From Amycolatopsis coloradensis (GTDB taxonomy: Bacteria > Actinomycetota > Actinomycetes > Mycobacteriales > Pseudonocardiaceae): DNA of 64,000 nucleotides. Numbering within the stretch: position 1 is the stretch's first letter; each line of letters begins with the position of its first letter. The position numbers and the translations under genes are program-made. The DNA lies in assembly GCF_037997115.1 (NCBI RefSeq), contig NZ_CP150484.1, forward strand, positions 1,565,014 through 1,629,013. Reading direction: 5' to 3'. Positions 6,364 through 62,898 of this stretch are shown here, one piece after another. Below the pieces are notes generated by a model. That model saw nothing but the letters and a program-made list of their open reading frames with translations. It was not told the origin of the DNA and did not search any database.

Positions 6364-6546
6364 CCGGCTTCGAAGTGGACATAGTCGCTACCGACTGGTA
6401 GTTCCATCGAGTGTAACCACCCTCCCTTGAGGGGCCCTGGCCTTTCGGTGTTCATCACATCGGCCTATCCTCGGTCTGGACCCCTTCAGTGAGCCCTGCT
6501 CGGGACAAGGCTGCGTCGGGTGTTCCTCATTCAGGGAGGTTTGTCT

Positions 6547-7191: not shown

Positions 7192-7259
7192 CCTTCTTCG
7201 CCCCGCTTTAGCAGAGTTCCAGAGCGCGCGCAGCAGCCATCCCCCTGCCTGGGGACAGC

Positions 7260-7322
7260 TGTGGGTAACCCGTCGAGTTATCCACAGATCGCTGCTAGGA
7301 GCGGTGGAAAATCTGTGGATGG
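7260..7322. promoter_or_regulatory. Cluster of DnaA-box-like sequences
   Basis: Within 63 bp there are TGTGGGTAA (7260–7268, reverse of TTACCCACA), a perfect TTATCCACA (7278–7286) and TGTGGATGG (7314–7322, reverse of CCATCCACA). They lie in the 284-bp space between two convergent genes, GNAT and cwlM, so they are unlikely to be promoter elements. A DnaA-titrating locus is one possibility. The rest of the space (7323–7475) is G-rich with nothing I can name. Confidence 0.4.
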
Positions 7323-7475
7323 GTAGGCTGGACTTGGGGACGCCCCCCGGGAAGGGTGGGGGCTGCGCGCCGGGTGGAGCTAGGGGTGGCGTACTCGGGG
7401 GACGGGGCACACAACCGGTTGTGCCGAGGGCGTCGGCAGAGGGATGTGCGCCCGCGTGCGGGTGTGGAGGACTGG

Positions 7476-8624: not shown

Positions 8625-8824
8625 GCACTCCTCGCTCTTCCCTTGGGGCACCGATCGAGCTCGATGCACGACTATGAAAACCCTGCGGGGCGAACCCCGG
8701 TGCTCTATTGTGCCCTGTGAACTCTCGGTGAGCGCGGAGGCCCGGTCGGTGCGTCAAGTCACCGTTCGTGGAGCTCGTCCAGGCGTTCCCGTAACGGAGA
8801 GATCTACCCGTTCCTCGTGACGAC

Positions 8825-8856
8825 GAAACCCGGAGCCTGGGCAGGCCCCGGGTTTC
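8825..8856. terminator. Hairpin downstream of trxA
   Basis: Inverted repeat with arms GAAACCCGG and CCGGGTTTC, a symmetric A/C mismatch and a further GCC/GGC stem around a TGGGCA loop. It begins 19 bp past the trxA stop on the minus strand and has no T-run, as is common in high-GC genomes. It separates trxBA from cwlM. Confidence 0.65.
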
Positions 8857-8874
8857 GGCAGGTGAAACGCGAGA

Positions 8875-9198
8875 TCAGAGGACGTCGGCGAGGTCCGACA
8901 GCAGCGCGGCCTTCGGCTTGGCGCCGACGATCTGCTTCACCGGCTTGCCACCCTGGAACAGGATCAGCGTCGGGATCGACATCACCTGGTAGTCACGCGC
9001 AGTGTTCGGGTTGGCGTCGATGTCGAGCTTGGCGACGGTCAGCTTCTCGCCGTTCTCCGCCGCGATCTCCTCGAGCACCGGGGCGACCATCTTGCACGGA
9101 CCGCACCAGGTCGCCCAGAAGTCGACCAGGACGGGCTTCTCGCTCGTCAGCACGTCGTCGACGAAGCTCTTGTCGGTCACCGTCACGGTGTTGGCCAT
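8875..9198 (-). CDS. trxA: Thioredoxin
   Basis: Cytoplasmic disulphide reductase reduced by TrxB. The 107-residue protein has the thioredoxin fold with active site WATWCGPCK near residues 30–38, the cis-proline loop SIPTLILF and the glycine GG of the C-terminal helix. ATG at 9198 is preceded by AAGGAG. It follows trxB with a 41-bp gap. The trxB–trxA–cwlM order is the same as in mycobacteria (trxB2–trxC–cwlM). Confidence 0.95.
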
Positions 9199-9239
9199 GG
9201 TGTCTCCTTCTGGGTGGTGAAACTCCGGTGTGGGAAAAG

Positions 9240-10235
9240 TCAGTTGGTGGTGGCGCCGTAGCCGCCACCGACCAGCTCAGGGGTCTCCTGGGCGGCCTCG
9301 ACACCGGCGTGCTCCGCCAGCCATCGTTCCGCGTCGATCGCCGCGGCGCAGCCCGAGCCCGCGGCGGTGATCGCCTGCCGGTACGTGCGGTCGACCAGGT
9401 CGCCCGCGGCGAAAACGCCGGGAAGGTTCGTGTACGAGGTGCGGCCCTTGGTGAGCACGTAGCCGTCCTCGTCGAGGTCCACCTGGCCGCGCACCAGTTC
9501 GCTGCGCGGGTCGTGACCGATCGCGACGAAGAAGCCGGTCACGTCCAGCTTGGACTCCTCGCCGGTCACCGTGTCCTTGAGCTTCAGGCCCTCGACCTTG
9601 CCGTCACCTTCGACCTCGGTGATCTGCTTGTTGAGCGCCCACTTGATCTTCTCGTTCTCGCGGGCACGCTCCAGCATGATCTTGGAGGCGCGGAACTCCT
9701 CGCGGCGGTGGACGATCGTCACGGACTTGGCGAACTTCGTCAGGAAGGTCGCCTCCTCCATCGCCGAGTCGCCGCCGCCGGCGACCACGATGTCGTGGTC
9801 GCGGAAGAAGAAACCGTCGCAGGTGGCACAGGCCGAAACACCGCGGCCGAGCAGCTCCTGCTCGCCGGGCACGTTCAGATAGCGGGCCGCGGCGCCCATC
9901 GAGAGCACGACCGCGCGGGCCGCGTAGCGCTGGCCGTTCGCGACGACGTACTTGACGTCACCGGTCAGCTCGACGGACTCGACGTCTTCCTGGCGCAGGT
10001 CGGCGCCGAAACGCTTGGCCTGCTCGCGCATCTCTTCCATGAGGTCGGGACCCTGGATGCCTTCGCGGAAGCCGGGGAAGTTCTCGACCTCCGTCGTCGT
10101 CATCAGCGCACCGCCGAACTGAGTGCCCTCGAACACCAGCGGTTCGAGCTGCGCCCGTGCCGCGTAGACAGCGGCGGTGTATCCCGCAGGACCCGATCCC
10201 ACAATGATCAGGTTCCTGATCTCCTCGGCAGCCAC
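9240..10235 (-). CDS. trxB: Thioredoxin reductase
   Basis: NADPH:thioredoxin oxidoreductase (FAD). The 331-residue low-molecular-weight type has the N-terminal FAD motif [13 protein letters not shown], the redox-active pair SACATCDG, the NADPH-binding [13 protein letters not shown] and HRREEFRAS, and the C-terminal FAD motif [26 protein letters not shown] at 10235 follows GGAGG at suitable spacing. First gene of the trxB–trxA unit. Confidence 0.95.
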
Positions 10236-49853: not shown

Positions 49854-49900
49854 GACTGTGTGGATTTTGGGACATCTGACGTCCCGAAATCCACACAGTC
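49854..49900. terminator. 20-bp-arm hairpin at the end of the ydcF-like gene
   Basis: GACTGTGTGGATTTTGGGAC (49854–49873) and GTCCCGAAATCCACACAGTC (49881–49900) pair with one mismatch around ATCTGAC. The right arm overlaps the stop codon end of the ydcF-like gene (49899). Strong terminator candidate. Confidence 0.85.
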
Positions 49901-50564
49901 ACCAGTCCTGAGGCAAAAGGCGTTCTCTGAAGCCAACCTGGACCAAACGATCGTAAGCCTCGGCGACGTTGTTCGGGATGTCCTGCTGGACAGCGAAACC
50001 GCGCTCGGCATAGACGGTGATCCGTTGCGTGTCACCGACGAGCATGGTGATGACGCGGTCCACGTCGCCGATGCTCGCGACGTAGTCATCCAGCGGCAAC
50101 GGTCGGGAAGCGCAGATGACGTCGACCCCTGGCCAGAGTTTCTTGCAGGTCGCGTAAGCGCGCCGCTGCTGGTACGGCCGCGAGATGAGGACGACAGATC
50201 CCACCTCGATGCCGCGAGAATCTAGCAACGCGCGCGTGAGCGTGATGTTGTCCCCCGTGTTCCGTGCCTCGGGCTCGACCAGGATGGCGTCGTCCGGCAC
50301 GCCCAGCTCAAGTGCGTGTTCGCGGTAGTGCACTGCCTCGCCGCGAGGGAACCGTTCGACAGTGGTCGGCGCGTTCGCCCCGGTGAAGACGATGAGCGGG
50401 AACATCCCGGCATGGAACAGTTCCGCGGCGTAGGTGGCGACGCCGAGGTCGTGGCTGCCGAGTCCGATGCCGACGTCGGCGGGCCGGAGTTCGTGGTGCA
50501 TGTCGTGGTAGTCCCAGAGCGTCCGGACGTCGGCGCGAAGATCGTCCGGCAAGGTTTCGGTCAT
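49899..50564 (-). CDS. YdcF/DUF218-family protein (chromosomal copy)
   Basis: A 221-residue DUF218 (YdcF/SanA/ElyC) fold protein: ADVGIGLGSHDLGVATYAAELFHAGMFPLIVFTGANAPTTVERFPRGEAVHYREHALELGVPDDAILVEPEARNTGDNITLTRALL...VVLISRPYQQRRAYATCKKLWP. In E. coli YdcF binds SAM; no enzymatic role is proven. No signal peptide or membrane helix, unlike SanA. ATG at 50564 has GGAG upstream. A close paralogue (about 80% identical by eye) is carried by the adjacent element at 54565–55227. Confidence 0.88.
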   Translation of the reverse strand: MTETLPDDLRADVRTLWDYHDMHHELRPADVGIGLGSHDLGVATYAAELFHAGMFPLIVFTGANAPTTVERFPRGEAVHYREHALELGVPDDAILVEPEARNTGDNITLTRALLDSRGIEVGSVVLISRPYQQRRAYATCKKLWPGVDVICASRPLPLDDYVASIGDVDRVITMLVGDTQRITVYAERGFAVQQDIPNNVAEAYDRLVQVGFRERLLPQDW

Positions 50565-50582
50565 CGGGGACTCCGAAGCAAA

Positions 50583-50631
50583 GCGAAAGCCCCAGGTCCT
50601 CAGTGGACATCCACTGAACTGGGGCTTTCGC
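50583..50631. terminator. tRNA-Gly terminator hairpin, chromosomal (left) copy
   Basis: GCGAAAGCCCCAG / CTGGGGCTTTCGC arms enclose a second palindrome CAGTGGACATCCACTG. This was the terminator of the tRNA-Gly gene before the element inserted. It is nearly identical to 62774–62822. Confidence 0.85.
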
Positions 50632-50635
50632 GAGA

Positions 50636-50677
50636 GAGCGGATGACGGGAATCGAACCCGCGTATTCAGCTTGGGAA
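50636..50677. repeat. attL: truncated 3' part of tRNA-Gly
   Basis: This 42-bp sequence is identical to 62827–62868, where it is part of the intact tRNA-Gly(CCC). Sequence similarity ends abruptly at 50677, inside the anticodon arm. It is the left attachment site of the integrated element and leaves a 41-nt tRNA remnant on the minus strand. Confidence 0.93.
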
Positions 50678-51563: not shown

Positions 51564-52646
51564 ATGTCTAAGGCACAAAAGGTGGTCGAACCTTCGGCCG
51601 ATGACATCTTAGCGGCTGAAGCTCAGATCGTAAGTCAATCAAAAAGGATCGAGTTCTACATTACGGAGTATTCCGTTGAGATCCTTGCGATGAAGGTGCG
51701 AGACGGCGAGTACGAAGTCCCTGCCTACCAGCGCGAATACACTTGGGAAGACGAGAGAAAGTCTCGGTTCATCGAGTCTCTGCTTATGGGGCTTCCGATA
51801 CCATTCATCTTCTTCTGGGAGATGCCTGATGGTCGCCTTGAAATTGTTGACGGATCACAACGTCTTCGGACGATCGAAGAATTCATCTTCGGCGGCTTTC
51901 GGCTTGGCCCGCTGGAGCAACTTACTCATGTAACGGGTCTGACCTTTAAGGATTTGCCGCAGTCTAGGCAGCGAAAAATACTAAATCGTTCGATTCGCGG
52001 AATAATCTTAAATGAGCATGCAGATGAAGCTGCTCGTTTCGATATGTTCGCAAGGATCAATACCGGAAGCAAGATCGCAAACACTGCAGAGGTCCGCCGC
52101 GGTGCATTGATAGGCCCCTTCTTGGATATGATCATCGATTTGTCTACTAGTCAAGAATTTGTTGCAATGACTCCGATGTCTACCAAGAGTGTGCGCGAGC
52201 GTGAGCGCGAAGAGTTGGTAACTCGATTCTTTGCATACGGTGATGGACTCGATGATTACCGGGATCGACCGTCAGACTTCTTGTTTCAGTACTCGCGCAA
52301 AATGAACGAGACGTTCAAATCCGATCCAGCGCTTGTCGACGAATATAAGCGTCGATTCTATGCAACAATGAAGTTTGTTAGCCAAGTTTTTCCGAACAAC
52401 TTCTCTAAGACTGCGCGGAGCTCGGCTACGCCGCGGGCTCGATTTGAATCTATCGCTATAGGGGCCGCAAGTGCCCTAGTGGAAGACCCCGCGATCGCGA
52501 GCAAGACGACGGCTGAGCTTGGGATTGCCGACTGGATTGAAGATCCAGGCTTCATAAAGGTGACAAACTCCGATGGCGCAAATGCGCGGTCCAGGCTTCG
52601 CGATCGCATCGAATTTGTTAGAGACAAGTTGGTGGGCAAGTCGTGA
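51564..52646 (+). CDS. DUF262 domain protein (cargo operon gene 1)
   Basis: A 360-residue protein with an N-terminal DUF262 (ParB/Srx-like nucleotide-binding) domain: PAYQREYTWEDERKSRFIESLLMGLPIPFIFFWE at residues 53–86 and EIVDGSQRLRTIEEFIFGGF at 93–112. The family's usual DGQQR motif is DGSQR here. GmrSD-type restriction enzymes pair DUF262 with a DUF1524 HNH nuclease; no HNH motif is visible in this shorter protein. ATG at 51564 with AGGGG upstream. GC content is far below the flanks. Its stop overlaps the HEPN gene start (GTGA), so the operon is translationally coupled. Likely a sensor or regulator of a defence system (inference). Confidence 0.88.
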   Translation: MSKAQKVVEPSADDILAAEAQIVSQSKRIEFYITEYSVEILAMKVRDGEYEVPAYQREYTWEDERKSRFIESLLMGLPIPFIFFWEMPDGRLEIVDGSQRLRTIEEFIFGGFRLGPLEQLTHVTGLTFKDLPQSRQRKILNRSIRGIILNEHADEAARFDMFARINTGSKIANTAEVRRGALIGPFLDMIIDLSTSQEFVAMTPMSTKSVREREREELVTRFFAYGDGLDDYRDRPSDFLFQYSRKMNETFKSDPALVDEYKRRFYATMKFVSQVFPNNFSKTARSSATPRARFESIAIGAASALVEDPAIASKTTAELGIADWIEDPGFIKVTNSDGANARSRLRDRIEFVRDKLVGKS

Positions 52647-53398
52647 ATAGCGCTGACTTGCTTTCATTCTTTGACGATCGTTTCGCTGAAATTGAAGATT
52701 ATGTTTCATTTCTAGAGGACGTCGAGAAGGCCGCTCAGTTGGGTGCTCCAAAGATCGGTTCTTTTGCTGCCCGGATAAGCCCGGCGCAACAGAAAATCTT
52801 GTACTCAAGTCTATATTTGCAGCTCTATAATCTGGTAGAAGCTGCCGTCTCACTATGTGTGGATTCAGTTGTTGAGTCTGCGGTGCGCGACGGACGTTGG
52901 CGGGTTGACGATCTTAACGAGAGCATGCGACGCGAATGGGTTCGCTCTATGGCTCGAACCCATCAGTCTGACATGGCTCCAGATAATCGCCTTAATAGCG
53001 CATTGAAAATGTGTGAGCATCTCATAAATCAGCTGCCGGTGGCGAGCTTCCAGGTTGAACGTGGTGGTGGTGGAAACTGGGATGACGAAAGTATCTACGA
53101 GATTACTAAAAGACTTGGCTGCAAGCTTTCGATTTCCCCTGCCACAAACGCTCTCGCGAAACGCTCGATACGTGATAATTTGGGGCCCTTGAAGCTCGTC
53201 AAGGATCGAAGGAACGGGCTAGCTCATGGCTCTGTTTCTTTCGCTGACTGCGCTGATGGGGTTACGGTTTCTGAGTTAAAAATGGTAGCTGAGGCAGTGG
53301 GCAAGTACTTGCGTGAGGTTATCACCTGTATTGGAACTTATGTTGATTTGAAAGAATTTCTCAATCCCGCTGGCATGCCTGCGAGCGTGAATCAGTGA
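52643..53398 (+). CDS. HEPN-type nuclease, MAE_28990/MAE_18760 family (cargo gene 2)
   Basis: A 251-residue helical protein resembling the MAE_28990/MAE_18760 HEPN-like family. The HEPN RNase motif RNx3H is exact: RNGLAH at residues 190–195, preceded by LVKDR. An early helix YSSLYLQLYNLVEAAVSLCVDSVVESAV fits the HEPN core. HEPN domains are mostly RNases used as toxins in defence. GTG start 52643 overlaps the DUF262 stop by 4 nt and its own stop overlaps the methyltransferase start by 4 nt. Low GC like its neighbours. Confidence 0.82.
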   Translation: MNSADLLSFFDDRFAEIEDYVSFLEDVEKAAQLGAPKIGSFAARISPAQQKILYSSLYLQLYNLVEAAVSLCVDSVVESAVRDGRWRVDDLNESMRREWVRSMARTHQSDMAPDNRLNSALKMCEHLINQLPVASFQVERGGGGNWDDESIYEITKRLGCKLSISPATNALAKRSIRDNLGPLKLVKDRRNGLAHGSVSFADCADGVTVSELKMVAEAVGKYLREVITCIGTYVDLKEFLNPAGMPASVNQ

Positions 53399-54462
53399 GT
53401 CAAAAGAAGGCGTCGACACGTCGAATCCGTGCAGTTGATCTATTTTGCGGCGTTGGAGGGCTTACGCATGGCCTCGTGCGAGGAGGGATAGAAGTCGCTG
53501 CTGGGGTAGACCTGGATCCACTATGCCGCTTTCCTTTTGAGGCTAACAATAAGGCAAAATTCATTGAGGCTGACGTAAAAGAGATTGACGTAGACCTGAT
53601 CGGCTCCTTCTACGATGGCGCCGAGTACAGCCTTCTTGCTGGTTGTGCCCCCTGTCAACCATTCTCCTCGTACAGTCAGGCTGGACGCAAGGGTAAGCGT
53701 TCGGGCGATTGGGACTTGGTTGGCAGCTTCGGCGAATTGGTCGAGAAGATCCAGCCGGACCTGGTTACGATGGAAAACGTCCAGCAGCTTTCTACGCATT
53801 CGGTCTTCGCGGACTTCCTGAAAAGTCTGAAGGGTTACCATGTGCGGTGGAGCATCGTGGAATGTGCGACCATTGGCGTTCCTCAGTCGCGAAAGCGTCT
53901 AGTGCTGTTCGCCTCCAAGCTGGGGAGCGCTGGGCTCGAAATAACTTCGTCGCGTCGGCGGATCAGGACTGTGAGGCAGACTATCGGGTCTTTGCCTAAT
54001 ATTGCCGCAGGCGAAAAGCATGTTGACGATCCTCTCCATGCCTCTTCCCGGCTCAGTCAGATCAACTTGAGGCGCATTCAAGCCTCAAAACCTGGCGGGA
54101 CTTGGCGAGATTGGGAACCGGGTTTGCAAGCTGCATGCCATCAGAAGGAGTCCGGTGCGAACTACTCCAGCGTCTACGGGCGAATGGAGTGGGATAAAGT
54201 AGCGCCGACCATCACGACCCAATGCTTCGGTTTTGGGAATGGGCGATTTGGTCACCCTGAACAGGATCGAGCTATTTCATTGAGGGAAGCGGCAATGCTG
54301 CAGACATTTCCCCGGTCGTACAAATTTGTTCGCCCGGACCAAGCGGTACGCTTTAGTCAATTGGGTCGTCTGATTGGGAACGCGGTACCTGTTCGGCTCG
54401 GCGAAGTGATTGCGGAGACTCTCGTCGATCATGTGGCTATGCACAGCAACTCCGTTGAATAG
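53395..54462 (+). CDS. DNA (cytosine-5)-methyltransferase (cargo gene 3)
   Basis: A 355-residue C5-cytosine methyltransferase with the motifs in canonical order: I VDLFCGVGGLTHG (14–26), IV GCAPCQPFSSY with catalytic Cys87, VI TMENVQ (126–130), VIII QSRKRLVLFA, the variable target-recognition region and X RLIGNAVP near the C terminus. No cognate restriction endonuclease of ordinary type is present; the DUF262 and HEPN proteins take its place in the operon. The recognition site cannot be inferred. GTG 53395 overlaps the HEPN stop. Confidence 0.93.
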   Translation: MSQKKASTRRIRAVDLFCGVGGLTHGLVRGGIEVAAGVDLDPLCRFPFEANNKAKFIEADVKEIDVDLIGSFYDGAEYSLLAGCAPCQPFSSYSQAGRKGKRSGDWDLVGSFGELVEKIQPDLVTMENVQQLSTHSVFADFLKSLKGYHVRWSIVECATIGVPQSRKRLVLFASKLGSAGLEITSSRRRIRTVRQTIGSLPNIAAGEKHVDDPLHASSRLSQINLRRIQASKPGGTWRDWEPGLQAACHQKESGANYSSVYGRMEWDKVAPTITTQCFGFGNGRFGHPEQDRAISLREAAMLQTFPRSYKFVRPDQAVRFSQLGRLIGNAVPVRLGEVIAETLVDHVAMHSNSVE

Positions 54463-54564: not shown

Positions 54565-55227
54565 TCAAAGTAAACGCTGCGTGAAGCCATGTTTCACCAA
54601 CTGGTCGTACGAGTCTTTGACTTCTGCGGGAATTTCTTGGGCAATCGCGAAGCCGCGTTCGGCGTAGACGGTGATGCGCTGGGTGTCGCCGACCAGCATG
54701 TTGATGACGCGGTCCACGTCGCCGATGCTCTCGATGTACTCGTCCAGCGGGAGCGGCCGCGAAGCGCAGATGACGTCGACCTCGGGCCAGAGCTTCTTGC
54801 AGGTCGCATACGCGCGTCGCTGCTGGTACGGCCGAGAGATGAGAACGACCGACCCGACCTCGATGCCGCGTGACTCCAGCAGCTTTCGAGTGAGCGTGAT
54901 GTTGTCTCCAGTGTTCCGCGCCTCGGGCTCTACCAAGATCGCGTCATCGGGTACGCCCAGCTCAAGCGCATGTCCGCGATAGTGCACTGCCTCACCGCGC
55001 GGGAAGCGTTCGACGGTCGTCGGCGCGTTGGCCCCGGTGAAGACGATGAGCGGGAACATCCCGGCGTGGAACAGTTCCGCGGCGTAGGTGGCGACGCCGA
55101 GGTCGTGGCTGCCGAGTCCGATCCCGACGTCGGCGGGCCGGAGTTCGTGGTGCATGTCGTGGTAGTCCCAGAGCGTCTGGACGTCGGCGCGGAGGTCGTC
55201 CGGCAGGGTGGTCGAACGCTCGGGCAT
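54565..55227 (-). CDS. YdcF/DUF218-family protein (element copy)
   Basis: A 220-residue close paralogue of the gene at 49899–50564, with long identical runs such as LWDYHDMHHELRPADVGIG, differing mainly at the N terminus and in the last 40 residues. ATG at 55227 has GGAG upstream. It is downstream of the GntR gene on the same strand with a 14-bp gap, so the pair is probably co-transcribed. Role in the element unknown. Confidence 0.88.
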   Translation of the reverse strand: MPERSTTLPDDLRADVQTLWDYHDMHHELRPADVGIGLGSHDLGVATYAAELFHAGMFPLIVFTGANAPTTVERFPRGEAVHYRGHALELGVPDDAILVEPEARNTGDNITLTRKLLESRGIEVGSVVLISRPYQQRRAYATCKKLWPEVDVICASRPLPLDEYIESIGDVDRVINMLVGDTQRITVYAERGFAIAQEIPAEVKDSYDQLVKHGFTQRLL

Positions 55228-55241
55228 CTGGGTCTCCGGGG

Positions 55242-56009
55242 TCAGTCGGGGATCTTGAAAGTGTAGGTCCAGGAGAACCGGCTTGCGGCGTGCACGCCTC
55301 GTGCGAACTCGACCACGCGGCCGTCCTCGGTGTACGTGCGGCGTTGCAGGACCATGACGGGTTCGCCTGCGGGCAGTTCGAGCTGTTCCGCCTCGTCGGG
55401 CGTCGGCATCCGCGCGTAGAAGGTCTCGGTCATGGTGTCCGGCTCAAGACCTTGCAGGGTGAGGACCAGAAACCCGCCGCCTCGTCCGGCTGGGCCGGGG
55501 GTTGGGTCGACGATGGGCGTGCCTTCGACGTCGGCGGGCCGGTAGTAGCTGGTGAGTACATGGGTGGGCTGGCCGGCGTCCTTGACCAGTCGTGCCCGCT
55601 CGTAGACCGGTGATCCGACGATGACACCGAGGGCGTCGGCGACCTCTCGGTCAGCTTCGATCTTGGCGACGGTCTGCGTCTGGTCGGTCGGCTTCCAGTC
55701 TCGGCCGGACGCTTCACGGTCTGCGACGAAGGCGACGGTATCGCCGTACTTCCACTTGCTCTTCGCGTACCGATCTTTGCCCAGGCGCTTCATGGGCGGG
55801 CGTGCACGAACGACTGTCCCGCGTCGTCTGATCGGCGTGACCAGTCCTTCGGCTTCGAGGACCCCAACGGCCTTGCGAACGGTGTTGACGTTGACGTCGT
55901 ACTCGTTGGCCAGCTCGTCTTGCTTGGGCAGCGTGGTGTCCGGGGCGTAGTCGCCCCGCTGGATCGCGTCTCGCAGGATCGCGGCCAGCTCTCGGTAGCC
56001 AGTGCCCAC
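55242..56009 (-). CDS. GntR-family repressor (KorSA-like), HTH plus UTRA
   Basis: A 255-residue GntR/HutC regulator: N-terminal winged helix YRELAAILRDAIQRGDYAPDTTLPKQDELANEYDVNVNTVRKAVGVLEAEGLV and a C-terminal UTRA ligand-binding domain ending VVEFARGVHAASRFSWTYTF. In pSAM2 the GntR protein KorSA represses pra and so keeps the element integrated. Here the gene is divergent from a Pra-like gene whose promoter is covered by a 14-bp inverted repeat, which supports the same circuit. GTG start 56009 with AGGAGG five bases upstream. Confidence 0.88.
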   Translation of the reverse strand: MGTGYRELAAILRDAIQRGDYAPDTTLPKQDELANEYDVNVNTVRKAVGVLEAEGLVTPIRRRGTVVRARPPMKRLGKDRYAKSKWKYGDTVAFVADREASGRDWKPTDQTQTVAKIEADREVADALGVIVGSPVYERARLVKDAGQPTHVLTSYYRPADVEGTPIVDPTPGPAGRGGGFLVLTLQGLEPDTMTETFYARMPTPDEAEQLELPAGEPVMVLQRRTYTEDGRVVEFARGVHAASRFSWTYTFKIPD

Positions 56010-56075
56010 CTGGTCCTCCTTCGTCGGTCGATAACGCTAGCGGTATCACCCCATCATGGTCTACGGAGCCCGATA

Positions 56076-56127
56076 GAGATAGTTCTATTGACAACTTGCG
56101 CAGCGAAGCGCTTAATAGAACTACCTC
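56076..56127 (+). promoter_or_regulatory. pra promoter with inverted-repeat operator
   Basis: GAGATAGTTCTATT (56076–56089) and AATAGAACTACCTC (56114–56127) are inverted repeats with one mismatch. The left arm overlaps a perfect -35 TTGACA (56088–56093), the right arm a -10 TTAATA (56112–56117), with 18-bp spacing. A dimer or tetramer of the neighbouring GntR repressor bound here would block RNA polymerase. Confidence 0.75.
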
Positions 56128-56177
56128 TAACAGGTGCAAGTCCGGTAGGGCTCCAGAGACGACAGGAGACAGACGAC

Positions 56178-56663
56178 ATGGCGATCGCCAAGGGACACCG
56201 TTTCGAGATCGACTTTGATGCCGCGTTCCCGCTAGGGCTGGTGATGGTCGGAGAGGTCGCGCCGGACAACGAGTACCAGTCGCGGGAAGACCGCTCCGCA
56301 GGCCGACCTGTTCGTCAGCGGGTCGACGAAGTGACGGGCAAGCGGCAGTGGAAGGCCACGGTCACCGACCCGAGCGAGACCAACTCCAAGCGCGCGTCTT
56401 ACGACGTCACGTTCCTGGCCGATGTGCAGCCAGTGCCGACCACGTCGGAGGTGCTGCCGGGTATGCGGCCGATCGAGCTGGATGGCTTGACGGCTGAGCC
56501 GAAGGTGGCTGGTCAGGGCGAGTTCAAGTACCAGTCCTACGTCTTCCGCGCGACCGGTTTCAAGGCTGCCGCATCGGTGGCGCATCCAAGTCGGGCCGTG
56601 CATCCAACGCTGCCGAGTCCACGCCCAAGGCGGCGTGATGACGGGCCGGGTGCCTGGCACTGA
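56178..56663 (+). CDS. Pra-like replication/integration/excision activator (probable 3' frameshift)
   Basis: The first 130 residues (MAIAKGHRFEIDFDAAFPLGLVMVGEVAPDNEYQSREDR...PVPTTSEVLPGMRPIELDGLT...YQSYVFRATGF) resemble the Pra family that activates replication and excision of pSAM2-type elements. The tail after KAAAS is unlike coding sequence in this frame. One base added near 56575 would give GGASKSGRASNAAESTPKAA and a stop at 56636–56638 that overlaps the next ATG, the usual layout. ATG 56178, GGAG upstream. Functional loss is unlikely, because only the Ser/Ala tail changes. Confidence 0.78.
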   Translation: MAIAKGHRFEIDFDAAFPLGLVMVGEVAPDNEYQSREDRSAGRPVRQRVDEVTGKRQWKATVTDPSETNSKRASYDVTFLADVQPVPTTSEVLPGMRPIELDGLTAEPKVAGQGEFKYQSYVFRATGFKAAASVAHPSRAVHPTLPSPRPRRRDDGPGAWH

Positions 56664-57168
56664 GGGCGTGGCCGTGGTTCCACCGCACCTGGTCCAGAGC
56701 TGGGAGGTGGCGTATCGCCACTACGGCGCGATGACGCAGCGGACTGCGCAGGGCGGGGATGCCCTGGCGGCGCATGACATGGCTGTCGCTTCCTGGGCGG
56801 TGGCGTCGGCGTGGCGGGAGCTGGCGGCTCAGGGTCAGTTGCCGTGGTGGGTGCTGGCTGCGGTGTCGGCGGCTGCTGAGGGGTTCGAGGAGAACGCGCG
56901 GTCGTGGGAGATGCGCGCCTACAGCGAGGAGAGTCAGGGCCGTGGCGTTCAACGCGATGTGGAAGCCGGGGCGGCAGGCGGTCGCGGGGATGCAGGGCAA
57001 TGGTTCGGCGAACCCGGCTCTGGTGATCTACCTGGATCCGGACAGCCTGGCGATCCTGCCGCCGTCCGATCCGGCCGAGTGGCCGGAATTCATCCGGCTC
57101 CTTCGCCAAATCCGCGACAGCGCGGACGAACTGGCCGTGTTCCTCGACAAGCACAAGGCGGTGCGTGA
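56638..57168 (+). CDS. Hypothetical element protein (3' end doubtful)
   Basis: The first 100 residues (TGRVPGTEGVAVVPPHLVQSWEVAYRHYGAMTQRTAQGGDALAAHDMAVASWAVASAWRELAAQGQLPWWVLAAVSAAAEGFEENARSWEMRAYSEES) look real and helical. After about base 56940 this frame loses GC3 bias while the overlapping frame of the next gene gains it, so the true C terminus may be nearer 56940 and an indel is possible. ATG 56638 (or GTG 56635). Function unknown. Confidence 0.55.
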   Translation: MTGRVPGTEGVAVVPPHLVQSWEVAYRHYGAMTQRTAQGGDALAAHDMAVASWAVASAWRELAAQGQLPWWVLAAVSAAAEGFEENARSWEMRAYSEESQGRGVQRDVEAGAAGGRGDAGQWFGEPGSGDLPGSGQPGDPAAVRSGRVAGIHPAPSPNPRQRGRTGRVPRQAQGGA

Positions 57169-57190
57169 TGACGACGCCCGGCCGGAATGA
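56942..57190 (+). CDS. Hypothetical element protein
   Basis: An 82-residue frame from GTG 56942 with GAGGAG eight bases upstream and strong GC3 bias: VAFNAMWKPGRQAVAGMQGNGSANPALVIYLDPDSLAILPPSDPAEWPEFIRLLRQIRDSADELAVFLDKHKAVRDDDARPE. It overlaps the 3' part of the previous frame. No family recognised. Confidence 0.6.
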   Translation: MAFNAMWKPGRQAVAGMQGNGSANPALVIYLDPDSLAILPPSDPAEWPEFIRLLRQIRDSADELAVFLDKHKAVRDDDARPE

Positions 57191-57422
57191 ACCCCAAACC
57201 CTCCGAGACGCGCACGCGGTCGCCTCGGCCCGCAGGCCGAAGCCGGGTTCGAACCTGGAGACGTGGCTGAAGTTCCACAAGGAGAACGCGCGCATGTACC
57301 GCGCTGTGTCCGATGTGGACCGAGGACATCACCACGAACTTCGTTACTGGGTGGGCTATGAGGAGCGGATGGCCGAGGAGGTGGCCGCGCAGATCCAGAA
57401 GGGGAAGTCGCAAGCCAGCTAG
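57168..57422 (+). CDS. Hypothetical element protein
   Basis: An 84-residue charged protein: TPGRNEPQTLRDAHAVASARRPKPGSNLETWLKFHKENARMYRAVSDVDRGHHHELRYWVGYEERMAEEVAAQIQKG. Helical, no membrane segment. ATG 57168 (or GTG 57165) overlaps the previous gene by 23 nt. Similar small proteins precede traB in AICEs; function unknown. Confidence 0.6.
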   Translation: MTTPGRNEPQTLRDAHAVASARRPKPGSNLETWLKFHKENARMYRAVSDVDRGHHHELRYWVGYEERMAEEVAAQIQKGKSQAS

Positions 57423-57446
57423 AAACTGAATGACAGAGCGAAAAAC

Positions 57447-57487
57447 GCGCGTGGGGACGTGCGGCGTGCAAACACGTCCTCACGCGC
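57447..57487. repeat. Hairpin 1 upstream of the transfer genes
   Basis: GCGCGTGGGGACGTG (57447–57461) and CACGTCCTCACGCGC (57473–57487) pair over 15 bp with one mismatch. Followed 17 bp later by a second hairpin. Terminator, attenuator or cis-acting transfer locus are all possible. Confidence 0.7.
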
Positions 57488-57504
57488 TGTGCAAGTCCCG
57501 TAAG

Positions 57505-57549
57505 GCGCAGAACCGGTAACTGGCCTAGGAAACCTCGCCGGTCCTGCGC
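57505..57549. repeat. Hairpin 2 upstream of the transfer genes
   Basis: GCGCAGAACCGG (57505–57516) and CCGGTCCTGCGC (57538–57549) pair over 12 bp with one mismatch around a 21-nt loop. It ends 25 bp before the ATG of the small zinc-binding protein. Confidence 0.7.
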
Positions 57550-57574
57550 TGTCCACAACCTCTGGAAGTGAACA

Positions 57575-57736
57575 ATGACAACGCTAAACGATGGCAACAA
57601 GCGTCCGCTAGACGGGGTCACCCGAACGCGCTGCACGGTCTGTAAGCGGTTCGCGAAGCTCCTGTCCGGTGAGACCGAATGTGCTCCCTGCCGGGGAATG
57701 CTGCCGCTGGACCTGACCGGCGGTGGTCGCCGATGA
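57575..57736 (+). CDS. Small CxxC-CxxC zinc-ribbon-like protein
   Basis: A 53-residue frame, ATG 57575 with GGAAG upstream, ending in a TGA that overlaps the traB ATG (ATGA). The product has two CxxC pairs: TRCTVCKRFAKLLSGETECAPCRGM, the spacing of a small zinc ribbon. Good codon bias and translational coupling to traB argue it is real. Role unknown. Confidence 0.7.
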   Translation: MTTLNDGNKRPLDGVTRTRCTVCKRFAKLLSGETECAPCRGMLPLDLTGGGRR

Positions 57737-59310
57737 ACGCTAACGGGATCGGTCTTCTCCTCGTCGGCGGCGGGGTGCTGGGTGTGGTGGTGTGGCTGCT
57801 GCACAAGCTCGGCCGCGCCCTGGCCACGATCGCGGAAGTCCTCGCCGCCGCTATGGTCGTCTTCATCGCCCTGTGGTCGGCCGTGAAATTGCTGGGGTGG
57901 TTGGGAAAGCAGGTATTCCAACACTGGCGGACCAGCCTCGGCGTGCTCGCTGCGGTGGCCTGGTGGCAGTGGCTCGGCTGGCCGTCGCTGGCCATCACGA
58001 CGGGTTCGGTCAGCGTGGTGCTGGTGGGGTGGCGGCTGCTCGACGTGGTGTCGTTCGACCGGTGCTGCGGCCGGTTCCTACGGGCGTGGTGGCTGCGCTG
58101 GTTCACCTACGCCCGGAAACTGTCCGGCTGGCTGCACGCCTGCGGCCTCTCTATATCCGACGGCACCGTGCCCGTCGAAGTCACGGTCAACCTCGTCGGC
58201 CGCCGTCGCAAGGCGGTTTCTCATGCTGCGGCGGGTAGTGCTGCGATGCAGGTGCCGAAGGTGCTGGGGGTGAAGTCGGGGCCATCCTGGGATGAGGTCC
58301 GCATCCAGCTCGTACCGGGACAGAAGCCGGAAGACTTCGACGATGCCGCCCGTGCGTTGGCGGTCGCTCGTAAGGTCACGCGGTGCCAGGTGCGAGAGCT
58401 GGAACCCAACGTCGTCTCGCTGGATTTCCAGCGTCGTGACCTCCTCAAGGCTTCGGTGGACTGTGCGGAGCTGCCCGACCTGGCGGCCGTCGACGGCGCG
58501 GATCTGCGGCGGGTGTTCGCCGGACGGACCGAGTACGGGAAGGACTGGCGGCTGCCGCTGACCGGTCCGGGCGCGCACATGCTCGTCGCCGGGGCCACCG
58601 GAGCCGGAAAGAACTCGGTCATGTGGTGCCCGCTTGTGTCGGCGGCGTCGGCGATCCGGGCCGGGACGGTGCGTATCTCGGGGATCGACCCGAAGGGGAT
58701 GGAACTCGCCTACGGACGCGGGATCTTCGCCCGCTACGGGGTCGCGGGGAAGGACGCGATCGAGGTCCTGGACGACCTGCTCGACGGCCTTGAGACCCGC
58801 AAGCGCGAGTTTGCCGGATTGACTCGTGAGGTTCCGATCTCCAAGGAAAACCCGTTGGAGGTGCTGGAGTTCGACGAGATCGGGGCACTGACCAAGTACA
58901 CCGACCGCAAGACCCGCGAAGCCATCGTCGAACGGGTCGCCATCCTGACCACGCAAGGTCGGGCACTGGGTTACACGGTGCGTGGCTACGTGCAGGAGCC
59001 GACGAAGGACACGGTCCCGGTTCGGGAACTGTTCCCGCGTCGAGTGTGCTTGCGTGTCACCTCGAAGACGCACGTCGGGATGGTCCTCGGTGATGGCGCC
59101 TACGAACGGGGTGCCTGGGCCAATCGCATTGAGGAATCCACGGCTGGCGTCGGCTACATCTGGGGCGAAGGCATCCGCGAACCGCTGCGGGTCCGGGCTG
59201 GCTGGGTGCCGGACGAGACGGTCAAAGCCTTGGAGAACTACGTCACCAACGGCGGCGCCCACGTGGTCGACCTTCCTGTCCGCCGTGGTGGCGAGGAGGT
59301 GGCGGCGTGA
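57733..59310 (+). CDS. traB: TraB-like FtsK/SpoIIIE DNA translocase
   Basis: Single-protein conjugative DNA pump of actinomycete elements, which moves double-stranded DNA between hyphae. The 525-residue protein has three or four N-terminal membrane helices (residues 3–110), a basic linker and an FtsK-like ATPase with Walker A AGATGAGKNS (286–295) and Walker B LEVLEFDEIGAL. The Walker A Lys is followed by Asn where FtsK has Gly/Ser or Thr. RVAILTTQGRALGYTVRGYVQEPTKD matches the FtsK/TraB core. The start overlaps the zinc-ribbon gene stop. Confidence 0.9.
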   Translation: MNANGIGLLLVGGGVLGVVVWLLHKLGRALATIAEVLAAAMVVFIALWSAVKLLGWLGKQVFQHWRTSLGVLAAVAWWQWLGWPSLAITTGSVSVVLVGWRLLDVVSFDRCCGRFLRAWWLRWFTYARKLSGWLHACGLSISDGTVPVEVTVNLVGRRRKAVSHAAAGSAAMQVPKVLGVKSGPSWDEVRIQLVPGQKPEDFDDAARALAVARKVTRCQVRELEPNVVSLDFQRRDLLKASVDCAELPDLAAVDGADLRRVFAGRTEYGKDWRLPLTGPGAHMLVAGATGAGKNSVMWCPLVSAASAIRAGTVRISGIDPKGMELAYGRGIFARYGVAGKDAIEVLDDLLDGLETRKREFAGLTREVPISKENPLEVLEFDEIGALTKYTDRKTREAIVERVAILTTQGRALGYTVRGYVQEPTKDTVPVRELFPRRVCLRVTSKTHVGMVLGDGAYERGAWANRIEESTAGVGYIWGEGIREPLRVRAGWVPDETVKALENYVTNGGAHVVDLPVRRGGEEVAA

Positions 59311-59693
59311 ACCGCGTTCTGGTGTTCCTCGATGCGATCCGCGATCACCTCGACTCCTACGCTTTTCCGCCGGTTGCGTCCGTGCGGGTCGGGTTCGGCC
59401 CGGACCCGGTGTCTGTCCAGCTCGATGCCGATGGTCTGACGGACGTGGCACGGAGCCTGGTCGTCTGGGCGGATTCCCTGGACAACGTGACCGCCTCGAT
59501 TTGGCGGGTGCCTCATGGAGGGAGCGTGCACCTGGAAGTCCAGGGCCGGACTCCCTGCGGCATCCCGGTCGCGGTCTACGGCGGTGTCCAGTTCGACGAA
59601 GCGACCTTCCCGGACCTGCCTGCGGGGATGCGGCAGGAGATGCCGGTGTTCGTGCTGCGGCAGTGGAACACGCCTGGGGAGGTGGCGGCCTGA
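59307..59693 (+). CDS. Hypothetical element protein between traB and repSA
   Basis: A 128-residue protein, GTG 59307 overlapping the traB stop by 4 nt and with its own stop sharing a base with the repSA ATG. RVLVFLDAIRDHLDSYAFPPVASVRVGFGPDPVSVQLDADGLTDVARSLVVWADSLDNVTASIWRVPHGGSVHLEVQGRTPCGIPVAVYGG is an alpha/beta sequence without a recognised family. Genes of this size sit at this position in many AICEs. Confidence 0.75.
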   Translation: MNRVLVFLDAIRDHLDSYAFPPVASVRVGFGPDPVSVQLDADGLTDVARSLVVWADSLDNVTASIWRVPHGGSVHLEVQGRTPCGIPVAVYGGVQFDEATFPDLPAGMRQEMPVFVLRQWNTPGEVAA

Positions 59694-61315
59694 TGAGTAC
59701 GAATGAAGCCGCGGTGACCCCGCCGGCCAACTCTCGGGCCGCTCGGATGCGGGAACCCCTGGCCTCCGACGTGGTGAAAGCGACCGCTGAGAAGCACGGC
59801 GTGTGCGTTCGGCCGTTCACGATGGAGGTGGGCGACACCGACACCGGAGAACTCCGCTACGTCCCGGTTCCCTGCGGCTCGACCGTCGAATCGGTCTGCC
59901 TGCCCTGTGCCCGCAAGGCCAAGGCGCTCAGGCAAGTCCAGTGCCGCGAGGGCTGGCACATGACCGAAGAACCCGACTTCACCGCAGAGCCACCGTCCCA
60001 GATGCAGACGGAGCTGCTGGCGTTCCGGGCCGACCTCGTCGCCGCCTATCGGCAAGAGACGGACCAGGCCGAAGCGGAGGAGCTGCGGGAGGAGATCCAA
60101 GGAGTCGACGACGAACTTCGGCAACTCGGCATGCGGGGCCGTCTCCCCTCGATCGACCTGCCCATGAAGAAGGCGGTGAAGCGGTCAACGAAGCGGCGAC
60201 AGGACGCGCCGAATCTGCCTCGGCGCAAGGTCGCGAAGACCACGGTCGGACGTGAGTACGCGGGGCGTTTCCGGCCGTCGATGTTCGTCACACTCACATG
60301 CGACACCTACGGCCCGGTCCGCTCCGACGGCGCACCGGTCGACCCGGCGACTTACGACTACCGGCGGGCCGCTCGGGACGCGGTCCACTTCTCCGCACTG
60401 GTGGACCGGTGGTGGCAGAACCTCCGGCGCGTGGTCGGCTGGGACGCGCAGTACTTCGCGACCGTCGAACCCCAACGGCGCGCGGCGCCCCATCTGCACG
60501 CGGCGATTCGGGGATCGGTCCCGCATGACGTGATCCGCCAGGTCACAGAAGCGACCTATCACCAGGTCTGGTGGCCCAACCATGACCAGGTCGTCTACGT
60601 CGACCGGATGCCGGTCTGGGACGGCGACACCAGAGTGTTCGTCGACCCGGACACCCGCGAACCGCTGACCGATTGGAACGACGCGATAGAGGCCGTGGAG
60701 CACCCGGCGTACGTGGTCACCTTCGGCCGTCAGGTTCACTCGAAGGGCATCCTCGGCGGCTCCGAAGAGGCTGGGCGGCACATCGGCTATCTGACCAAGT
60801 ACCTCACCAAGTCCACGGGTGAGGTGGTCGAAGCCGACACGGCGAGACAGAAGGATCACCACGACCGGTTGCACGCTGAGCTGTCGGTGACACCCTGCTC
60901 GCCTCGGTGCGCGGTGTGGTTGCTCTACGGCATCAATCCCAGGGGCGCCAACGGGAAAACGACTCCGGGGCATTGCAAGGGGCGGGCTCACCGGCGGACC
61001 ACGCTCGGCCTGCCGGGGCGTCGAGTGCTGGTGTCGCGCAAGTGGTCGGGCAAGACGCTCGTCGACCACAAGGCGGACCGGAAGGCGTTCGTCCTGCAAG
61101 CGCTGGCGGCGGTCGGGATCGAGAAACCGGCACCGGACCCGGCGCGGCTGGTCTGGCGCAAGGTCGATTCGAGCGACGCGAACGTGCCTCCTCGGGACCA
61201 CCTGGTGATGCACGCGATCTCTGAACGGATCACCTGGAAAGCCGAGTACGACAGGGCGCTACTCGCTGCGCAGAGTCCGCCGGATCTTTCGGCAACTCAG
61301 GGTGTGGCTGCTTAG
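59693..61315 (+). CDS. repSA: RepSA-type rolling-circle replication initiator
   Basis: Starts rolling-circle replication of the excised element. The 540-residue protein has an N-terminal Cys-rich segment (VESVCLPCARKAKALRQVQC), FVTLTCDTYGPV (motif I type), the HUH motif PHLHAAIRG with His267 and His269, and a YLTKYLTKS helix with two candidate nicking tyrosines (366 and 370). C-terminal CSPRCAVWLLYG. ATG 59693 shares a base with the preceding TGA. Order repSA–xis–int is that of pSAM2. Confidence 0.9.
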   Translation: MSTNEAAVTPPANSRAARMREPLASDVVKATAEKHGVCVRPFTMEVGDTDTGELRYVPVPCGSTVESVCLPCARKAKALRQVQCREGWHMTEEPDFTAEPPSQMQTELLAFRADLVAAYRQETDQAEAEELREEIQGVDDELRQLGMRGRLPSIDLPMKKAVKRSTKRRQDAPNLPRRKVAKTTVGREYAGRFRPSMFVTLTCDTYGPVRSDGAPVDPATYDYRRAARDAVHFSALVDRWWQNLRRVVGWDAQYFATVEPQRRAAPHLHAAIRGSVPHDVIRQVTEATYHQVWWPNHDQVVYVDRMPVWDGDTRVFVDPDTREPLTDWNDAIEAVEHPAYVVTFGRQVHSKGILGGSEEAGRHIGYLTKYLTKSTGEVVEADTARQKDHHDRLHAELSVTPCSPRCAVWLLYGINPRGANGKTTPGHCKGRAHRRTTLGLPGRRVLVSRKWSGKTLVDHKADRKAFVLQALAAVGIEKPAPDPARLVWRKVDSSDANVPPRDHLVMHAISERITWKAEYDRALLAAQSPPDLSATQGVAA

Positions 61316-61334
61316 GAACTGGGGGAGGGAACAC

Positions 61335-61553
61335 ATGGAAGCCAAGTATCTGACGGTCGAAGAGGCGGCTGCCTACCTGAACACTGGTGTCCGGCTCGTG
61401 CGGCGGCTGATCGCGGAACGACGCATCGCCTTCCATAAGGCGGGGGTCCATGTCCGTGTCGCTCTCGGGGATCTGGAGAGCTTCATGCAGGCAGGGCGGG
61501 TAGAGCCGATCACGCGCGCATCGGTCCGCCGTGACCTGGGAAGGGCGGCCTGA
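61335..61553 (+). CDS. xis: Excisionase (Xis), helix-turn-helix MerR/HTH_17 type
   Basis: A 72-residue winged-helix protein: YLTVEEAAAYLNTGVRLVRRLIAERRIAFHKAGVHVRVALGDLESFMQAGRVEPI. Needed with Int for excision in related elements. ATG 61335 has GGGGGAGGG upstream; the int ATG begins one base after its stop, so the two are coupled. Confidence 0.92.
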   Translation: MEAKYLTVEEAAAYLNTGVRLVRRLIAERRIAFHKAGVHVRVALGDLESFMQAGRVEPITRASVRRDLGRAA

Positions 61554-61554
61554 G

Positions 61555-62733
61555 ATGGCGAACAAGCGTGGGCATCGTGGGTTCGGGACCGTTCGGCAAC
61601 TTCCGTCCAAGCGGTGGCAGGCTCGCTATCCCGGTCCAGACGGAATCATGCGACCGGCGCCGGACACGTTCGATACGAAGCGGGCCGCCGAACGCTGGCT
61701 GTCGTTGACGGAAACGCAGGTCACACAAGGCGAGTGGATCGACCCGGAGCGGGCAAAGCGCAAGCTCGGCGACTACGCGGACCAGTGGATCACCCAACGG
61801 CCGGGGTTTCGTCCGCGTACGGTCGAGCTGTACAAATGGTTGCTGCGTAAGCACATTGCGCCGGACCTCGGCGGGGTCGAGCTGGGCAAGCTGTCCACGG
61901 CGATCATTCGGCAGTGGCGTGCTGACCGGCTGACGGTTGGTGTTTCGGAGTCTGTGACGGCCAAGTCCTATCGGCTGTTGCGGGCGATCCTGAATACAGC
62001 AGTGGAGGAGGACAAGATCCTGCCTCGCAACCCGTGTCGGGTCCGTGGGGCCGATCGCGAGAATCCGGACGAACGACCGGTGATCACCGTGGCCCAAGTG
62101 TTCGACCTGGCTAGCCGGATGCCGGAGCGCTTCCGCGCCCTGGTGCTCCTCGCTGCGTTCGGGTCGCTGCGGTGGGGCGAGGTGACCGCATTGCGTCGGT
62201 GCGACGTCGCCGAAGATGCAGGCTGGGTTCGGGTGTCGCGCGCGATGGTCGAGGTTCCCGGTCGCGGGCTTGTAGTCGGGCCGCCCAAGTCGAGGGCGGG
62301 TGTCCGGACGCTGATCATTCCGGCGGCGGTCCGGCCTGACCTTCTGCGTCACCTGGAGACGTGGGTCAAGCCTGAGCAAGACGCGCTGCTCTTCACCGGT
62401 GAGCGAGGTGGGAACGCGGTACGTCGGCCGAATTTCAGTCAGCGGACGAAGTGGGTCGAGGTCGTGGAGAAGATGGGCCTCAAGGGCCTGCACTTCCACG
62501 ACCTCCGGCACGCGGGGAACATCTGGGCGTCGAAGGCGGGCACGTCGACCAAGGACCTCATGGCGCGGATGGGGCATGACGACATGCGGGCGGCCCTCAT
62601 CTACCAGCGAGCGACGAGTGAGGCCGACGCGCAGATCGCGGACCGACTGTCCAAGCTCGTCGACCGACACCGCAAGGGCACGACTCCGGACGACGACGAA
62701 GATCAGGACGGCCAACCGGTCCCGGTCGGCTAA
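61555..62733 (+). CDS. int: Tyrosine recombinase (integrase)
   Basis: Integrates and excises the element at tRNA-Gly. The 392-residue protein has an N-terminal arm-binding domain (GFGTVRQLPSKRWQARYPGPDG), a SAM-like core-binding domain (residues 70–155) and the catalytic domain with Arg206 (SLRWGE), HDLRH (315–319, His/Arg), His341 (GHDDM) and the nucleophile Tyr350 (ALIYQRAT). The stop codon TAA is the first base triplet of the arm repeat. It lies 94 bp from the att core. Confidence 0.95.
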   Translation: MANKRGHRGFGTVRQLPSKRWQARYPGPDGIMRPAPDTFDTKRAAERWLSLTETQVTQGEWIDPERAKRKLGDYADQWITQRPGFRPRTVELYKWLLRKHIAPDLGGVELGKLSTAIIRQWRADRLTVGVSESVTAKSYRLLRAILNTAVEEDKILPRNPCRVRGADRENPDERPVITVAQVFDLASRMPERFRALVLLAAFGSLRWGEVTALRRCDVAEDAGWVRVSRAMVEVPGRGLVVGPPKSRAGVRTLIIPAAVRPDLLRHLETWVKPEQDALLFTGERGGNAVRRPNFSQRTKWVEVVEKMGLKGLHFHDLRHAGNIWASKAGTSTKDLMARMGHDDMRAALIYQRATSEADAQIADRLSKLVDRHRKGTTPDDDEDQDGQPVPVG

Positions 62734-62752
62734 TGGCACGTTAATGGCACGC
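62731..62752 (+). repeat. Right arm repeats TAATGGCACG (x2)
   Basis: TAATGGCACGT followed by TAATGGCACGC, the counterpart of 50763–50783. The int stop codon is inside the first unit. Same orientation at both ends of the element. Confidence 0.6.
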
Positions 62753-62773
62753 GAGCACCGGCGGCCAGGCAAA

Positions 62774-62822
62774 GCGAAAGCCCCAGGTCCTCAGTGGACA
62801 TCCACTGACCTGGGGCTTTCGC
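62774..62822. terminator. tRNA-Gly terminator hairpin, element-borne (right) copy
   Basis: GCGAAAGCCCCAGGT / ACCTGGGGCTTTCGC-type stem (one interruption) enclosing CAGTGGACATCCACTG. It serves the restored tRNA-Gly on the minus strand. Compared with the left copy it differs by a single base inside the hairpin. In this copy the stem is slightly better paired. Confidence 0.88.
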
Positions 62823-62826
62823 ATCT

Positions 62827-62868
62827 GAGCGGATGACGGGAATCGAACCCGCGTATTCAGCTTGGGAA
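62827..62868. repeat. attR: 42-bp repeat inside intact tRNA-Gly
   Basis: Identical to 50636–50677. It covers the 3' end through the anticodon loop of the tRNA, so insertion restores a functional tRNA with element-derived 3' sequence. Confidence 0.93.
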
Positions 62869-62898
62869 GCTGATGTTCTACCATTGAACTACATCCGC
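62828..62898 (-). tRNA. tRNA-Gly (anticodon CCC)
   Basis: On the minus strand the 71 nt fold as a cloverleaf: acceptor GCGGATG/CATCCGC, D-arm GTTC..GAAC, anticodon stem TCAGC/GCTGA with loop TTCCCAA (anticodon CCC), T-arm GCGGG-TTCGATT-CCCGT. No CCA is encoded. Decodes GGG. Only copy in the window; the 3' half was supplied by the element. Confidence 0.96.

Follow-up and report, generated by a model that had tools for sequence, protein, structure and literature searches.

A DUF262, HEPN, and C5-methyltransferase gene trio on an integrative element of Amycolatopsis coloradensis as a candidate methylation-gated RNase defence cassette

In a 64,000-nucleotide stretch of the Amycolatopsis coloradensis genome (the window; contig NZ_CP150484.1, positions 1,565,014 to 1,629,013), three adjacent genes at 51564-54462 encode a DUF262 protein, a MAE_28990-family HEPN protein, and a C5 cytosine DNA methyltransferase (MTase). 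From their sequence features, we read the trio on balance as a methylation-gated RNase defence cassette, in which the MTase would mark self DNA, the DUF262 protein would sense, and the HEPN protein would cleave RNA. An earlier sequence-only reading had proposed a defence system with this mechanism. That part stands, as the trio is a conserved unit on mobile elements and some copies lie in a hotspot together with tested systems. The accompanying claim of novelty was too strong, as described below.

The three genes stay together in nearly all loci retrieved with the HEPN protein. We collected 87 loci, 48 from GTDB genomes with a five-sequence HEPN alignment as the query and 11, 10, and 18 from three viral-contig scans with HEPN queries, and sought DUF262 and MTase in all of them with homologue-built profiles. 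Many viral loci are near-copies, so the 87 loci are not independent events. DUF262 was present in 85 of the 87, MTase likewise in 85, and the full trio in 83. The four incomplete loci are all at contig ends; two (L074 and L079) start inside the HEPN gene and two (L088 and L089) stop 5 and 9 bp past the HEPN match. A chance juxtaposition of three genes is ruled out by these numbers, and the co-occurrence elsewhere on which the sequence-only reading had staked its proposal is present. The order DUF262-HEPN-MTase was found in 41 genome loci, and the order MTase-DUF262-HEPN in three genome loci and one viral locus. The MTase gene is convergent in one genome locus and 37 viral loci. Complete trios occur in at least five phyla (Actinomycetota, Pseudomonadota, Cyanobacteriota, Bacteroidota, and Planctomycetota), with two further phyla possible from L066 (Candidatus Manganitrophaceae, DUF262 frame split) and L088 (Lentisphaeria, where the contig ends before any MTase). 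Frames are split in five of the 87 loci: DUF262 in L066 and L089, MTase in L085 (DUF262 too in one analysis) and L091, and HEPN in L087. The DUF262 match of L104 is confined to positions 118-358, so this copy may be incomplete as well. Among 11 plasmid loci retrieved via DUF262, nine are complete trios, L013 has a distant C5-MTase, and L015 (Escherichia coli) has no MTase.

No fourth conserved gene was found, the largest cluster of flanking open reading frames (ORFs) covering 7 of 75 loci. Vsr genes adjoin the trio in some loci. In L068, HEPN and MTase are both kept although a stretch of about 1.5 kb (2634-3834), with ORFs resembling TnpB by eye, lies between them. Three other searches gave nothing: a genome scan with a single-protein query and a viral-contig scan with the E. 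coli plasmid HEPN confirmed no relative, and the window HEPN had no match in the phage collection.

The three proteins have also diverged together. Alignments that include the window hold 45 rows for HEPN and 44 each for DUF262 and MTase, with 42 loci common to all three. Over these 42 loci, the pairwise distances correlate (Mantel) with r of 0.90 for HEPN-DUF262, 0.84 for HEPN-MTase, and 0.86 for DUF262-MTase, values which include the shared descent of the hosts since no host-phylogeny correction was made. In 2,000 label shuffles per protein pair, r reached at most 0.33. In a tree of 71 DUF262 proteins, 53 trio rows together with L013 and L015 lie on one side of a branch (100/99), with L013 nested in the trio and the long-branched L015 outside it. 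The other side holds the NsnA-type (Menshen-like) L016 and L017, L018, L019, and 12 others. The DUF262 partner in L018 is a HEPN_RiboL-PSP protein (41.7 bits), and that in L019 is weakly HEPN-like. Outside the trio clade this tree is unsafe because many rows are short or long-branched. An MTase tree made with a quick method from 47 trio MTases and eight MTases with other partners is mixed, with five changes in the best tree, only one of which is forced by the starred branches, so the trio MTases may have had one origin or more.

The sequence-only reading of the gene layout was borne out. All three ORFs are on the plus strand and both junctions are 4-bp GTGA overlaps (Table 1); the DUF262 ORF has an alternative in-frame TTG start upstream at 51492. 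The trio is low in GC (0.515; 0.501, 0.489, and 0.547 for the DUF262, HEPN, and MTase genes) against a background of 0.661 in the element (54565-62880) and 0.680 in window positions 1-49000. The GC at third codon positions is 0.546, 0.480, and 0.576 in the same gene order, compared with 0.831 in the FtsK-like gene and 0.796 in the integrase gene of the element.

The domain assignments made from the sequence alone held as well. The GmrSD_N and HEPN_MAE_28990 matches (Table 1) are well above the Pfam cut-offs of 33.2 and 26.8 bits, and the DNA_methylase match likewise clears its cut-off by a wide margin. The DUF262 protein contains the YQREY and DGSQR motifs, and D96, G97, Q99, and R100 are kept across the alignment. 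Apart from GmrSD_N, no HNH or DUF1524 domain, no other recognised nuclease domain, and no second family was found in it (Pfam, E 0.1). Its best PADLOC match is NsnA, and it also matches PD-T4-2_A (E 1.6e-27). Against PDB sequences, it matched 7p9k (E 1e-9), which we take to be BrxU, and SspE 6jiv (E 0.005). In the HEPN protein, the RNxxxH motif is intact, and R190, N191, H195, and G196 are invariant in 45 of 45 aligned rows, L096 among them. The motif is RNx[LI][AGS]HG wherever the motif scan of the 87 loci caught it; L088 is cut before the motif, another stretch was caught in L096, and the motif is missing from one fragment of the broken L087. No PADLOC 2023 model matched the window HEPN at E 0.1, and nothing significant was found among PDB sequences. 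The NCBI label on this protein in annotated plasmid and E. coli records is 'MAE_28990/MAE_18760 family HEPN-like nuclease'.

The MTase is complete, with the DNA_methylase match covering residues 12-343 and the PCQ and ENV motifs kept across the alignment. The interval between motifs VIII and IX is well conserved, with mean entropies of 1.02 (residues 216-250) and 0.60 (251-290) against 1.97 for residues 177-215; those of the catalytic motifs are 0.30-1.06. Because of this low entropy between motifs VIII and IX, the trio MTases may share one target sequence. CCWGG, reportedly a target in the 2018 DISARM paper, was considered because of the DrmMII-like match and the Vsr neighbours. The window MTase matched 3lx6 and 3me5 of the PDB, presumably Dcm-type enzymes, in one stretch limited to the catalytic half. 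With the matches so confined, and a Serratia DISARM C5-MTase reported to target another motif, CCWGG was dropped.

These features suggest how the cassette may work. Methylation by the C5-MTase would be maintained at one target sequence of the resident DNA. The DUF262 protein, a predicted nucleoside triphosphatase of the ParB/Srx fold, would inspect DNA and keep the HEPN protein inactive. On phage DNA that is entering the cell or replicating fast, an unmethylated target would lead to nucleoside triphosphate (NTP) binding or hydrolysis and a shape change in DUF262, by which HEPN would be released or activated. Cleavage of RNA by HEPN would then stop the infection, probably at the cell's expense. 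We infer in this way the self-marking by the MTase, the reading of the mark by DUF262, the RNase activity of HEPN, and the abortive outcome, and the MTase is likewise presumed to be active and cognate to the DUF262-HEPN pair. In SspE, the DUF262 domain is a sensor that hydrolyses NTP and switches on the nuclease domain attached to it, and BrxU depends on NTP too (PMC10952713). By analogy, the adjacent HEPN protein may stand in for the attached nuclease domain, as in PD-T4-2. If this reading is true, DNA self-marking would be tied directly to an RNA-cleaving effector, placing the trio between restriction-modification (R-M) and abortive infection.

The strongest rival is an R-M system in which the DUF262 protein itself would cut or nick unmethylated DNA and HEPN would be a PrrC-like backup RNase for the case of blocked restriction. 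We consider this unlikely. Of the features of a type II R-M system, the methyltransferase is present, no nuclease family besides DUF262 was found (Pfam), and the PADLOC type II restriction endonuclease model (REase_II) matched the window DUF262 protein with 40 bits. DUF262 is also the most conserved protein of the trio (mean pairwise identity 0.61, against 0.59 for MTase and 0.47 for HEPN). Anantharaman et al. (2013, PMC3710099) term the partner a 'ParB nuclease' and argue for PrrC-like gating of HEPN proteins linked to R-M genes. However, the DUF262 protein has no recognised nuclease domain, the cutting domain of GmrSD, BrxU, and SspE is the half that is missing from it, and (I/V)DGxQR is described as an NTP pocket in GmrS and SspE (PMC10952713).

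Several observations weigh against the methylation-gated reading, besides the host component in the co-divergence values. GmrSD and BrxU are triggered by modified cytosine rather than by the unmodified base (PMC10952713). PD-T4-2, which is not known to include a methylase, defends. The MTase frame of the L091 trio is split with DUF262 and HEPN whole. Two loci from the same order as the window (L139 and L140) have DUF262-HEPN with no C5-MTase within 15 kb, in a search limited to the C5 type. Among 396 genomes of the phylum there were four matches including the window; the contig of L002 carries HEPN and MTase and breaks off on the DUF262 side, neither partner of the L003 HEPN was detected within 3.6 kb, and the L004 match falls short of the family cut-off. 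The HEPN search patterns also favour the trio clade. An enterobacterial plasmid lineage also carries the DUF262-HEPN pair; 8 of 5,426 E. coli genomes hold at least 80% of this pair, the absence of MTase being checked in three of the eight loci. In these three (L015, L039, and L040), DUF262-HEPN is intact, about 12 bp are common past the HEPN stop, and the sequences then diverge. IS21-family genes (two loci) or IS26 (one locus) stand in the MTase position, where no trace of an MTase was found (best tblastn E 0.33). The pair is thus tolerated without its own MTase, at least on these plasmids, and the MTase is not always required, because such methylase-free pairs exist. The hotspot discussed below also carries non-defence genes, e.g., partition genes (PMC9122126). 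The same DUF262 gene is also in Salmonella plasmid records, and a TEM-30 gene is near the pair in L040.

The HEPN family overall is therefore not tied to a methylase, and the trio clade is. The methylase-free pairs bear on a second rival, a type IV-like sensor, in which DUF262-HEPN would react to modified phage DNA and the MTase would serve another purpose, e.g., protection from other restriction. GmrSD and BrxU have modified cytosines as their targets, and the DUF262 of Dazbog is linked to methylated-DNA recognition (PMC10952713), which fits this view. However, a sensor responsive to 5-methylcytosine would turn on its own host, whose DNA the MTase marks, and the two of the 87 loci without an MTase are both cut at a contig end, though the L091 copy has the split frame. 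We regard this rival as improbable.

The methylation-gated reading gains from a sister system in the genus of the window, L141, where DUF262 and HEPN stand with a convergent N4/N6 DNA methylase (6374-9415). This methylase is probably a different self-marker, and the marker role of the methylase is supported because a same-genus sister carries one of another type. An FtsK-like gene about 4 kb away is 77% identical to that of the window. In L013 (Sinorhizobium pSymA), DUF262-HEPN is convergent with a C5-MTase of another subfamily which is 20% identical to the window's. A wider idea, which we hold tentatively and with slightly less than even confidence, is that the trio follows R-M logic with an RNase restriction arm and no DNA cut, the methylation state read by DUF262 giving HEPN its licence to cleave RNA. 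DUF262-HEPN would then be a plug-in core that has been combined with self-markers of several kinds (the C5-MTase clade of the trio, a second type of C5-MTase, or an N4/N6 MTase) or with none. If the methylation-gated reading is right, the forms of this core with a C5-MTase, with an N4/N6 MTase, and without a methylase would make up a comparison set for the reading of DNA marks by DUF262. Related MTases in L128, L129, L131, L132, L134, and L135 adjoin a protein annotated as ATP-binding or with a HATPase domain. The domain is present in both of those scanned, L128 (Haloplanus) and L134 (Listeria), and the L129 protein is short and beside a transposase. The pairing is possibly another methylase-based system.

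The claim that the trio matches no named system stood in part. No named or tested system with the full architecture was found in the papers searched or in PADLOC 2023; the supplementary tables of PMC9122126 may list it as a hotspot arrangement. The association itself had been recorded: Table 1 of Anantharaman et al. (2013, PMC3710099) describes MAE_28990 as 'In operon with a ParB nuclease and DNA methylase genes'. The HEPN family is the same, whereas that entry is a table row without name, function test, MTase type, distribution, or co-evolution. The core also resembles PD-T4-2, a tested anti-T4 defence with DUF262 and HEPN (PF18735). PD-T4-2 is a two-gene system, and its PADLOC models comprise components A and B only. 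In contrast to this likeness, the window HEPN does not match PD-T4-2_B (PADLOC, E 0.1), with one of nine plasmid homologues matching weakly (E 0.017), and the window DUF262 scores higher to NsnA (205.3 bits) than to PD-T4-2_A (94.5 bits). We describe the trio as a DUF262-HEPN pair akin to PD-T4-2, accompanied by a C5-methylase in nearly all of its clade.

Membership in three other systems was rejected. The Nsn proteins are presumably Menshen components, in keeping with PMC10952713, and the window DUF262 has its best PADLOC match in NsnA. However, the NsnA of L016 is paired with an NsnB ATPase (351 bits), whereas the neighbours in the trio are HEPN and MTase with no NsnB, and L016 and L017 are outside the trio clade. 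GmrSD, BrxU, and SspE share the DUF262 N-terminal domain. The window protein (360 aa) has the GmrS domain (PF03235) without their DUF1524 HNH nuclease domain, the GmrD half not being found at E 0.1. The MTase is like DrmMII of class 2 DISARM, and the MTase of a Microvirga relative adjoins drmD with Vsr in between. The adjacent genes in the window are DUF262, HEPN, DUF218, and GntR, with no DISARM core gene (DrmA helicase or DrmB DUF1998) among them, in a comparison limited to this neighbourhood.

Four types of the trio were found in E. coli, at a query coverage of at least 80% in 9, 106, 4, and 3 of 5,426 complete genomes, or up to 122 in total with overlaps between types still counted. The type with nine genomes matched 204 genomes overall, mostly partially, the count being from the best 30 of the 204. 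Three types lie in P2-like prophages, with the portal gene Q on one side and the replication gene A on the other (four loci inspected), and the fourth is in a lambdoid-type prophage (one locus inspected). The Q-A locus is a hotspot where three of eight further cloned systems defended, besides old-tin and an AC1 system (Rousset et al., 2022, PMC9122126). The trio is not named in the hotspot section of that paper. The MTase-less pair plasmid and a chromosomal trio are present together in strain YZ22PE106. The presence of the trio in E. coli, besides its spread over at least five phyla, makes it testable in K-12.

These locations are also relevant to a third rival, an addiction module of the mobile element, in which HEPN/DUF262 would kill cells that lose the MTase and phage defence would be secondary. 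R-M modules can act as addiction modules. The window copy is on an integrative element, prophages or plasmids carry the E. coli copies inspected, and further copies come from plasmids or viral contigs; this comparison covered the window, plasmid, inspected E. coli, and viral-contig copies. However, plasmid copies persist without the MTase, and the trio is in the P2 hotspot. We give this rival little weight.

The window trio is the cargo of a 12.2 kb element of the pSAM2 type, whose ends are 42-bp identical repeats at tRNA-Gly. The feature set of an actinomycete integrative and conjugative element (AICE) is complete, with an integrase, a small helix-turn-helix (HTH) protein (xis), RepSA, an FtsK-like transfer gene, and tRNA attachment repeats (Table 1). 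In the 9.06 Mb host genome, the HEPN family is in single copy.

Table 1. Features of the gene trio and of its carrier element in the window
Feature	Coordinates	Strand	Evidence and remarks
DUF262 / GmrSD_N protein, 360 aa	51564..52646	+	ATG start; PF03235 90.3 bits; PADLOC NsnA 205.3, PD-T4-2_A 94.5 bits; probable NTP-dependent sensor, without the HNH/DUF1524 half
MAE_28990-family HEPN protein, 251 aa	52643..53398	+	GTG start; PF18737 91.2 bits; RNGLAHG (R190 N191 H195); probable RNase effector
C5 cytosine DNA methyltransferase, 355 aa	53395..54462	+	GTG start; PF00145 179.2 bits; PADLOC DrmMII 273.1 bits; PCQ with Cys87; probable self-marker
Attachment-site copy, 42 bp, identical to tRNA-Gly end	50636..50677		repeat comparison
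Attachment-site copy within tRNA-Gly (62827-62898, -)	62827..62868		tRNA and repeat comparison
GntR/UTRA regulator	55242..56009	-	Pfam
FtsK-like (TraSA-type) DNA translocase	57679..59310	+	Pfam
RepSA replication initiator (pSAM2 type)	59846..61315	+	PF20199 321.7 bits
Small HTH_17 protein, probable excisionase	61302..61553	+	Pfam
Tyrosine integrase	61531..62733	+	Pfam

A cluster of ORFs near the trio is common to seven actinobacterial loci (L042, L043, L045, L046, L050, L074, and the window), and the longest of these ORFs (L042, 2359-3324) resembles a GntR regulator by eye. Because of this shared cluster, related elements may often be the carriers of the trio. Two DUF218 genes of the window, 49899-50582 (-) and 54565-55227 (-), are 89% identical over 216 residues, the first being just beyond the left attachment site. 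A 40-bp sequence near the integrase gene (62769-62808) is repeated at 50578-50617, beside the outer DUF218 gene. The outer DUF218 gene and the 40-bp repeat were probably left behind by a related element that had earlier occupied the same tRNA-Gly.

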